From NCBI GenBank assembly GCA_009377375.1, contig WHUE01000006.1:21859-85858 (forward strand): 64,000 bases of DNA. Direction: 5' to 3'. This document shows positions 53,477-60,809 of this stretch, piece after piece. Positions within the stretch are counted from its first letter, which is position 1; each line of letters begins with the position of its first letter. A program made the translations under genes and the position numbers. Origin of the DNA: Alphaproteobacteria bacterium (GTDB taxonomy: Bacteria > Pseudomonadota > Alphaproteobacteria > MPNO01 > UBA2964). The notes under the pieces are model-generated. The model was not told where the DNA came from and did no database searches. It saw only the letters and a list, made by a program, of their open reading frames with translations.

Positions 53477-54115
53477 ATGAGCCGGGTCCACGACATCACG
53501 GTCGCCTTCCGCCCCGACGGCCCGCTCTGGCCCAACGATCCGCCGCCCAGGGTGACGCTGATGAAGAGCGTGGAGGGCGGCTACCGCTGTAACGTCACGC
53601 GGCTGGATACGGGTGTGCATTTCGGCACCCATCTGGACGCGCCGTGTCACTTCATCGAGGGCGGCCGGACGGTGGACGAGCTCGACCTGTCGGTCCTTGT
53701 CGGCCCCTGTACCGTGGCGGAGGTGCCGGATGCCGCCGCGATCGGGCCGGAGCACCTGGACGCGCTGGACCTCGCGCCCGGCGCGACCCGGCTGCTGCTC
53801 AAGACGCGAAACTCCGCCTTCTGGGACGACCCTGCCCATGAATTTCGCAGGGACTTCACCGCGCTGACCGCCGATGCGGCGCAGTGGGTGGTGGACCGGG
53901 GGATCCGGCTGATCGGCATCGACTACCTGTCGATCCAGCTCTTCGACGACGCGGTCAGCACCACCCATCTGGTGCTGCTCGGCGCCGAGGTGATCATTGT
54001 CGAGGGGCTGGACCTGCGCGCCGTCGCGCCCGGCGATTACCACCTGACCTGCCTGCCGATGAAGCTGGCCGGCGCTGACGGCGCCCCGGTCCGGGCGATA
54101 CTGACCGGGACGTAG
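53477..54115 (+). CDS. Cyclase/kynurenine formamidase-like metal-dependent hydrolase
   Basis: CNVTRLDTGVHFGTHLDAPCHFIEGGRTVDELDLSVLVGPCTVAEV (HxGTHxDAPxH motif)...GIDYLSIQLFDD. Confidence 0.9.
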   Translation: MSRVHDITVAFRPDGPLWPNDPPPRVTLMKSVEGGYRCNVTRLDTGVHFGTHLDAPCHFIEGGRTVDELDLSVLVGPCTVAEVPDAAAIGPEHLDALDLAPGATRLLLKTRNSAFWDDPAHEFRRDFTALTADAAQWVVDRGIRLIGIDYLSIQLFDDAVSTTHLVLLGAEVIIVEGLDLRAVAPGDYHLTCLPMKLAGADGAPVRAILTGT

Positions 54116-54206
54116 AACGCCGCAAGGCGTCGGAAATATTTACAACCGTCGCTTCGGCATCGCTTGATGAACCTGTAGCATATTGAAAACCAACAGCATT
54201 TTATTC

Positions 54207-54222
54207 TGGCACGGGTTTTGCA
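54207..54222 (+). promoter_or_regulatory. Sigma-54 (RpoN) -24/-12 promoter TGGCACGGGTTTTGCA
   Basis: Full match to TGGCACG-N4-TTGCW with GG-N10-GC spacing, 51 bp upstream of the PEP-CTERM gene start. Confidence 0.8.
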
Positions 54223-54273
54223 TGGCTGCCTGCCGGCGCGTCGAGCGTCGGCCGGGATGACGGAGAGCTGACG

Positions 54274-55044
54274 ATGATGAGACCGTTTCTGACAGCGCTC
54301 GCGCTGGTCATGGCGATTGCCGGGCCGGCGAAGGCGGTCACGGTGACCTTCACCGGGCTTGGCAGCGCGGCTTCCGGCGTGATCGGGCACGAGGCGGTGG
54401 CCGTGGGCGCAACCGCCCCCGGGGCTGCGGCCTACACGCCGCTGGGCGTCGTGCACATCTACGCGGCGCTGGTGTCGCCCGATGCATGGAACACGGCAAC
54501 GGGGACCGAGGTCGCCATCGGGACCAACGCGCCGGCAACGGGTTTCGGCGGCACGGCCGCGGCGCCGCACGGCCTGGAGCCCGCGGGCATCGCCGGCGAC
54601 ATCCATATCGGCATCGCCGGGCTGACGCTCGACTACACCAACAGCGCCGATCTCTTCTTCTCCGATGCCTTCCACGAAACGCGGTTCTATCGCGGCGGGA
54701 CGGTGAAAATCCTCGAGGAAACGTCGCCGGGCGTCTACAGCGTTCTGGCGGCGTATACCGATCTCGTGATGCAGGTCGACATCGACTATACGACCGGGGA
54801 AATCGTCAGCACCGCAACAGCCACCCGCATCCTCGGCTCGTCGCTGTTCCCGGAATCCTGGGGCGGGCTCTCCTTCGATCCGATCGACGTGGTGGGCACA
54901 ACCCCGACAGGGGCCTATGGCGGCTTCAGCGCCACGACGAGCATGGCGTTCGACACCGGCGGCCTGCCGTTGCCCGAGCCCGCCATGCTGGCGCTGTTCG
55001 GCCTCGGCCTCGTCGGGATCGGCGCGATCCGCCGTAGGGGCTAA
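54274..55044 (+). CDS. PEP-CTERM sorting-domain protein (secreted, exosortase substrate)
   Basis: N-terminal signal peptide MMRPFLTALALVMAIAGPAKA; C-terminus LPLPEPAMLALFGLGLVGIGAIRRRG = PEP motif + TM helix + basic tail. Confidence 0.92.
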   Translation: MMRPFLTALALVMAIAGPAKAVTVTFTGLGSAASGVIGHEAVAVGATAPGAAAYTPLGVVHIYAALVSPDAWNTATGTEVAIGTNAPATGFGGTAAAPHGLEPAGIAGDIHIGIAGLTLDYTNSADLFFSDAFHETRFYRGGTVKILEETSPGVYSVLAAYTDLVMQVDIDYTTGEIVSTATATRILGSSLFPESWGGLSFDPIDVVGTTPTGAYGGFSATTSMAFDTGGLPLPEPAMLALFGLGLVGIGAIRRRG

Positions 55045-56018
55045 TCCGGCGCCAGCAGCGCCGCCAGGCCGGGGAAGGCCGGGTAGCGGTGGGTGACGAC
55101 CCAGCTGGGAATTGCCTTCATATAGCCTTCGAATCGGCCCTTGGCCTCGAACCGGACGCGGAAGGGGGACGCGACGAAGGCGTCGCCGAGCCGCGGCACG
55201 ATTCCGCCGGCGATCCATACGCCGCCGCGCGCGCCGAGAGACAGCGCCAGGTCGCCCGCCACCGTGCCGAGGAACGCGCAGAACAGCTCCACCGCGCCGA
55301 CGCACAGCGGATCGTCGCCGAGCAGCGCGCGGGCGGTGATCTCCGGCGGGGTCAGGGTTTCCGCATCGCGCGCTTCGATGCGGGCCAGGGCCTCGTAGAG
55401 GTTCACCAGCCCGGGCCCCGACAGCACGCGCTCCGCCGAGACGTGCTCATAGCGCCCGCGCAGATAGTCGATCACCGCCATCTCGCGCGCATCCGTCGCC
55501 GGCAGGGTGACATGGCCCCCCTCGGTTGCCAGCGCGGTCCAGTTTCCGCCGCTGTCCGGCACCAGCCCGGAGACGCCGAGCCCGGTGCCCGGACCGATCA
55601 CGGCGACCGGCGTGCCTTCCGCCGGTTCGCCGCCGCCGACCTGTATGCGGTCGGCGGGACCGAGGCGCGGGATGGCATGGGCGACGGCGGTGAAATCGTT
55701 GACCACTTCCAGCCGCGCGAGCCCCAGCCGCGTTCGCAGCGCCTCGATCGAGAACGACCAGCGCCGGTTGGTCAGCCGGATTTCATCGCCGGTGACGGGA
55801 GAGGCGACGGCGACGGCCGCCTGCGACGGCCGCGAGGCAGGGGCGGATGCCTGAAGGAAGGATTCCGCCGCCTCGGCGAGTCCGGGAAAGTCGTCGCAGG
55901 AAAGCACCGAGACCGCGCCCGGCGCGCCGTCCGCGCCGGCGAGCGCGAACCGGGCGTTCGTTCCGCCGATATCGGCCAGCAGCGCCGATCCTCCACCGCC
56001 CGAGCGGTCGCCCGGCAC
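55041..56018 (-). CDS. glk: Glucokinase (Glk family), GTG start
   Basis: LLADIGGTNARFALAGADG...VIGPGTGLGVSGLVPDSGGNWTALATEGGHVTLPATDARE...VSAERVLSGPGLVNLYEALA...GGVWIAGGIVPRLGD. Confidence 0.92.
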   Translation of the reverse strand: MPGDRSGGGGSALLADIGGTNARFALAGADGAPGAVSVLSCDDFPGLAEAAESFLQASAPASRPSQAAVAVASPVTGDEIRLTNRRWSFSIEALRTRLGLARLEVVNDFTAVAHAIPRLGPADRIQVGGGEPAEGTPVAVIGPGTGLGVSGLVPDSGGNWTALATEGGHVTLPATDAREMAVIDYLRGRYEHVSAERVLSGPGLVNLYEALARIEARDAETLTPPEITARALLGDDPLCVGAVELFCAFLGTVAGDLALSLGARGGVWIAGGIVPRLGDAFVASPFRVRFEAKGRFEGYMKAIPSWVVTHRYPAFPGLAALLAPD

Positions 56019-60099: not shown

Positions 60100-60762
60100 C
60101 TAACGGTCGATACGGTGGGCGATCCGCGTGGCCTGCGCGGCATTGATGCGCGCCTCGCGGCGGGCGCGGAAGTCCCGCCGTCGTTCCTCGTTCCACAGCG
60201 CGAAGACCCGGCGCCAGTACGGCCGGCCGTGTTCCGGCGTGCCGGAATGGTAATGCGTCACCGCGGCGGACCACGACCGCCGGGTCACGCGCAGGTTTTT
60301 CAGGTGCCGCGCGGCGTAGGCCACGTTGTGCACCGGGTCCAGCGCCTGCGCGACGCTGTCGAAATTGCCGCCGTGATACATCAGGTTCACCTGCATGCAG
60401 CCGACATCGATGTTCTTCACGCCCCTTGCGCGCAGCGCCTCGATCTCTGCCATCGCCGCCTCGCGGGTGGGGTAGTACCGGCCCCGCCCCTCGGCATAGA
60501 CGGTCCAGGGCCAGGCAGTATTTGCCTGGGCCTTTGCGTTCCAGCGCCCGGATTCGGCCAGGCTGACCGCGTGCAGCAGCATGCGCGGCAGCCTCATCAG
60601 CCGTTCCGCGGTTTCCGTCAGCTCGGCGCAGATCAGGCGCGGGTCCATGGAATCCGCCGGATCGGCGGCGTGCGCGGCCGGCGCAGTTCCCGCCATGCCG
60701 GCGAGCAGCAGCGCGACGGCGAGCGTTCTGCGCATGTCTTTCCTGACGATCGTGCGAACCAT
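60100..60762 (-). CDS. SLT-type lytic transglycosylase, secreted (start could be 60735)
   Basis: Signal peptide; LLHAVSLAESGRWNAKAQANTAWPWTVYAEGRGRYY...NIDVGCMQVNLMYHGGNFDSVAQALDPVHNVAYAARHL. Confidence 0.85.
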   Translation of the reverse strand: MVRTIVRKDMRRTLAVALLLAGMAGTAPAAHAADPADSMDPRLICAELTETAERLMRLPRMLLHAVSLAESGRWNAKAQANTAWPWTVYAEGRGRYYPTREAAMAEIEALRARGVKNIDVGCMQVNLMYHGGNFDSVAQALDPVHNVAYAARHLKNLRVTRRSWSAAVTHYHSGTPEHGRPYWRRVFALWNEERRRDFRARREARINAAQATRIAHRIDR

Positions 60763-60809
60763 GATGCGGCGCGCGATGCAAGCCGCGTGCCAGCCGGGTT
60801 AAGTCGGTC

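Follow-up and report, generated by a model that had tools for sequence, protein, structure and literature searches.

The PEP-CTERM protein gene at positions 54274–55044 of the window (the entire 64,000-nt stretch of DNA analyzed here) is very probably a unit of an XrtA/PEP-CTERM regulon, in which PrsK/PrsR, an IHF-induced bend and sigma-54-dependent activation would govern expression of a product processed by XrtA. Both the prediction of this regulon and its name go back to Haft et al. 2006 (PMC1569441), and so the assignment is not a discovery; the gene appears to add one ordinary but well-supported member to what had been published. The promoter anatomy described here is sharper than the published version, and earlier accounts of the known regulon seem to lack the predicted IHF bending site as well as the helical spacing. 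The features concerned are as follows.

54128–54144, plus strand: motif 1 of the PEP-CTERM box (CGTCGGAAATATTTACA), predicted PrsR-binding enhancer site, 0 mismatches to CGGAAANNTTTACA
54176–54188, minus strand: IHF-like site, plus strand TAGCATATTGAAA, reverse of WATCAANNNNTTR, 7 of 9 specified bases
54207–54222, plus strand: sigma-54 −24/−12 promoter TGGCACGGGTTTTGCA, perfect match
54233, plus strand: predicted transcription start, 12 nt past the C of the −12 GC, as expected from sigma-54 geometry
54262–54267, plus strand: probable ribosome-binding site GGAGAG, identified by eye
54274–55044, plus strand: PEP-CTERM protein gene, 256 amino acids, above the PF07589 and TIGR02595 cut-offs
54973–55038, plus strand: C-terminal sorting signal (PEP motif, hydrophobic helix, RRR), PF07589 match at residues 234–255

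The gene and its promoter box

The PEP-CTERM ending that a preliminary description had given the product is borne out by both PF07589 (23.7 bits, cut-off 20.7, residues 234–255) and TIGR02595 (17.2 bits, cut-off 16), the tail reading LPLPEPAMLALFGLGLVGIGAIRRRG. By eye, the N-terminus (MMRPFLTALALVMAIAGPAKA) resembles a signal peptide of about residues 1–21, and no Pfam domain was found in the body of the protein, the PEP-CTERM tail excluded. The gene forms a single-gene unit, since the putative cyclase gene on its 5′ side, on the same strand, ends at 54115 and the glucokinase gene on its 3′ side is convergent. A full-length relative (47–48% identity) occurs in another genus of the same family; upstream of the best such relative (G008, 48% identity) no motif 1 or −24/−12 element is recognizable, so inheritance of promoter and gene is sometimes uncoupled.

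In the description of Haft et al. 2006 (PMC1569441), proteobacterial PEP-CTERM genes are preceded by a 17-nt motif 1 ending in TTTACA, the predicted PrsR site, which a spacer of mean length 62.8 nt (SD 10.6) separates from motif 2, a sigma-54 motif. With membership in this box regulon defined as motif 1, a spacer of 32–92 nt and the sigma-54 motif 2, the window gene belongs to it, its motif 1 lying 62 nt from the −24 element. The region 54130–54205, proposed earlier to hold an enhancer-binding site, thus does have a predicted one in the published motif 1 at 54128–54144, and contains the IHF-like site as well.

The middle element and helical spacing

An unbiased information profile of 22 promoters of this genome, aligned on the −24 element, revealed an extra conserved block 19–31 nt before −24. 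Read on the opposite strand, its consensus YAANNNNTTGAWW becomes the IHF consensus WATCARNNNNTTR (as quoted in PMC7962754). At least 8 of the 9 IHF positions are matched in 20 of the genome's 27 promoters (0.6 expected in dinucleotide shuffles) and, with G003 left out because of its second promoter class, in 18 of 27 promoters from family relatives (2.7 expected); the match is weaker in boxes near prsR genes in other Proteobacteria, where 8 of 22 reach this level against 1.9 in simple shuffles. In most promoters of the genome the element lies 30–32 nt past motif 1 and 18–19 nt before −24, and the window copy occupies the modal position, 31 nt past motif 1 and 18 nt before −24.

An IHF site is the best reading of this element on present sequence evidence. 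Unlikely alternatives are a second PrsR site, a target of some different regulator or an A-tract with intrinsic curvature. In their favor, the window copy is imperfect (7 of 9), the part that varies least (A, TTGA) does not span a complete IHF site, and some promoters of the family and of other classes have no good IHF match at the middle position. Against this, the core and its spacing agree with WATCARNNNNTTR, the location between enhancer and −24/−12 is the classical one for IHF (PMC7962754), and both subunit genes are present in the genome (ihfA, 140 bits, cut-off 111; ihfB, 147 bits, cut-off 120).

The spacing of the boxes is also consistent with an IHF-induced bend. Among the genome's own promoters (n = 27), 22 have motif 1 and the sigma-54 element 75–78 nt apart, two 64–66 nt and two 88 nt, with one outlier at 142 nt, and promoters of the family fall into the same three spacing classes. 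Because one peak dominates both of these sets, the informative test of phasing is provided by 80 prsR neighborhoods of Alpha-, Beta- and Gammaproteobacteria, which yielded 22 boxes; a control search, run with motif 1 in reverse, yielded 1. The spacings of the 22 boxes are 66, 76–78, 86–88 and 99–100 nt; this set, which contains some related loci, fits best to a period of 10.9 bp, a periodicity that no random set out of 2000 equaled. The interval on one side of the IHF-like element can shift by about one turn with the other side constant; steps of about one turn occur in both flanking intervals and therefore fit the expected bend. In the box context, Haft et al. 2006 (PMC1569441) report spacer length only as mean, SD and range, and phasing, bending or IHF were not found there. 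Among the papers searched, few of them from subscription journals, none pairs PEP-CTERM with IHF as whole words. What the sequence itself shows is which parts the promoter has, where they lie and that they recur in the genome and the phylum.

Separately, G003 harbors, on many short contigs, a second promoter class with TTAACCATTGTCATCGG replacing the IHF-like element; several of these second-class boxes are alike, which suggests duplication of PEP-CTERM units.

Regulon, activator and sigma-54 element

No exosortase, prsK/R or EPS genes accompany the gene in the window, and its earlier designation as an orphan member of a trans-controlled regulon is supported by a profile search of the genome (4.36 Mb, 373 contigs), which located XrtA, PrsK, PrsR, PrsT and rpoN on other contigs. 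The preliminary description had tied its reading to an exosortase; there is exactly one, of type XrtA (exosortase A; 338 bits, cut-off 208), on contig C55. The same locus encodes PrsK (745 bits, cut-off 300), PrsR (690 bits, cut-off 503) and PrsT (817 bits, cut-off 312), with prsK, prsR and prsT adjacent, together with EPS proteins of the XrtA type that exceed curated cut-offs, and a single copy of rpoN is found on contig C356. The genome contains about 25 PEP-CTERM matches. The shared promoter and enhancer anticipated for these genes recur as the pair of motif 1 and −24/−12 upstream of at least 18 of the 24 PEP-CTERM ORFs with upstream sequence; in two of the 24 a perfect −24/−12 lacks a good motif 1 at the customary distance, and four PEP-CTERM-like ORFs have neither. 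Across the family, the combined pattern has matches in 9 of 13 genomes, the reversed-pattern control giving 0 in all 13, and a phylum-wide scan with the pattern returned mostly background and supports none of the conclusions here.

PrsR is the only protein in the genome above the PrsR cut-off and sits in the XrtA locus, and PrsR and motif 1 share a phylogenetic profile (PMC1569441). Binding of motif 1 by another NtrC-type protein, with PrsR not being the activator, is accordingly improbable, even though three further proteins reach 320–370 bits with the PrsR model, short of the 503 required.

The GG-N10-GC element noted earlier 51 nt 5′ of the gene proved to be a perfect −24/−12 (GG at 54208–54209, GC at 54220–54221, 51 nt to the ATG at 54274). 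Taken singly, this match is weak evidence, at chance level: TGGCAYN5TTGCW has three perfect matches in the window, and 2.1 matches with at most one mismatch are expected by chance. Its significance derives from motif 1, since the only motif-1 match in the window (54131–54144, 0 mismatches) lies at the canonical distance from it, and all 10 exact copies of CGGAAANNTTTACA in the 4.36-Mb genome have a sigma-54 element 75–88 nt downstream, start to start. That the −24/−12 is a chance match and the gene is served by a sigma-70 promoter is thus very hard to credit: about two matches with at most one mismatch are expected per 64 kb, but here the match comes together with motif 1 and the middle element at exactly the expected spacing, and no sigma-70-like site was found in 54050–55300.

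Another perfect match, TGGCAC-N5-TTGCA, lies at 60777–60792 (minus strand), 14 nt 5′ of an ORF at 60100–60762 (minus strand) that encodes a lytic transglycosylase SLT domain; it has no motif 1, and is probably a chance match or an element served by a different activator. In G000, two boxes in divergent orientation lie at C144:28107–29270, separated by about 1.1 kb; a PEP-CTERM-like ORF follows either one, and one of them has a spacing of 88 nt, one turn longer. Boxes at L008, L003 and L024 precede tiny ORFs of 33, 43 and 53 amino acids, the products of which resemble signal-like peptides or peptides with a single membrane span; of these boxes, the one at L008 is part of the XrtA–PrsK locus.

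From these elements we infer protein binding, activation, a start site, processing and a role in aggregation, as follows. The kinase PrsK would phosphorylate PrsR, which would occupy motif 1 at 54128–54144, and IHF binding at 54176–54188 would bend the DNA such that PrsR could touch the closed sigma-54 RNA polymerase at 54207–54222, with ATP hydrolysis opening the complex. The mRNA would have its 5′ end near 54233, and the protein would be exported by Sec, processed at its PEP-CTERM tail by the single exosortase A and probably deposited in the exopolysaccharide matrix.

The window unit shares with the system of Haft et al. 2006 (PMC1569441) a cis-regulatory sequence composed of a motif 1 ending in TTTACA, a spacer of about 62 nt and a sigma-54 motif, as well as its organization as a single gene for a protein with a likely signal peptide and a PEP-CTERM tail, and a genome with PrsK/PrsR/PrsT and an exosortase; it differs in the IHF-like third element at a fixed place and in the helical-step spacing. 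In Aquincola tertiaricarbonis, disruption of prsK or prsT abolishes flocs (Xia et al. 2023, PMC9850573), and pepA is RpoN1-dependent, with mapped TGGCAC and CTGCTT elements (PMC9850573). The window gene is likewise an RpoN-type PEP-CTERM gene with a TGGCAC −24, its RpoN dependence being predicted. By contrast, Aquincola pepA adjoins prsT and is experimentally supported, whereas the window gene is isolated, alphaproteobacterial and known from sequence. The protein bodies are also unlike: the PepA family model NF033554 gave no full-length match to the 256-residue product, with 20.3 bits against a cut-off of 80, on the tail only. The order of enhancer, IHF site (predicted here) and −24/−12 is that of the IHF-assisted nifH and TOL Pu promoters (PMC7962754). 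Unlike these, the predicted activator is PrsR, the spacer is only about 62 nt, and one architecture is common to dozens of promoters of proteins with unrelated bodies.

An isolated gene of otherwise unknown function is thereby placed in a defined surface-protein regulon, and the stricter promoter definition, with three elements and helical spacing, lets such regulons be listed in draft genomes.

Box-hairpin units

Complete boxes on contigs C22 and C44 have no PEP-CTERM coding sequence behind them; instead, 81–100 nt further on, there is a hairpin with the invariant loop TGACGCCAACCCCGG, followed by a GC-rich terminator-like stem. The same succession of box, hairpin and terminator is found in G003, G005, G008, G009 and G012. 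Across eight sequences, the hairpin displays compensatory changes at 10 of 25 predicted pairs. Of the order's 27 genomes, 14 contain a covariance-model match at E ≤ 0.01; strong matches are confined to some of the 14, but scores above 70 bits extend to a second family. In L248 and L239 (~1520, reverse strand), the hairpin lies at the 3′ end of intact PEP-CTERM genes, with the TGA in its loop and protein ends of ...RRRRRAI* and ...RRRKTV*. Because the hairpin ends these intact genes, the short units look like a promoter joined to a PEP-CTERM 3′ end, which makes them candidate small RNAs or remnants of decayed genes. No such hairpin is present in the window gene at 54274–55044. Matches to Xoo2 (RF02241) were not counted as membership, the scores of 20–32 (gathering score 45) coming mainly from the GC-rich terminator.

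Judging by the hairpin transcripts, RNAs may belong to the regulon, a possibility that to our knowledge had not been considered before. A broader reading, which we put forward tentatively as possible rather than probable, is that PrsR boxes across the Proteobacteria are IHF-bent three-part switches with both intervals quantized in helical turns, and that within this order of Alphaproteobacteria such switches also drive short RNAs from PEP-CTERM 3′ ends, laid out as promoter, stop-codon hairpin with loop UGACGCCAACCCCGG and terminator, which may regulate or titrate PEP-CTERM mRNAs. The hairpin transcripts merit study of their own.

The IHF-like element is not clear in every promoter copy of the hairpin units. 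Those in G000 are at L007:1501–1650 (plus strand) and L067:1252–1420 (reverse strand), and those of relatives at L143, L145, L146, L147 and L149, the distance from box to hairpin ranging from 67 to 163 nt overall.
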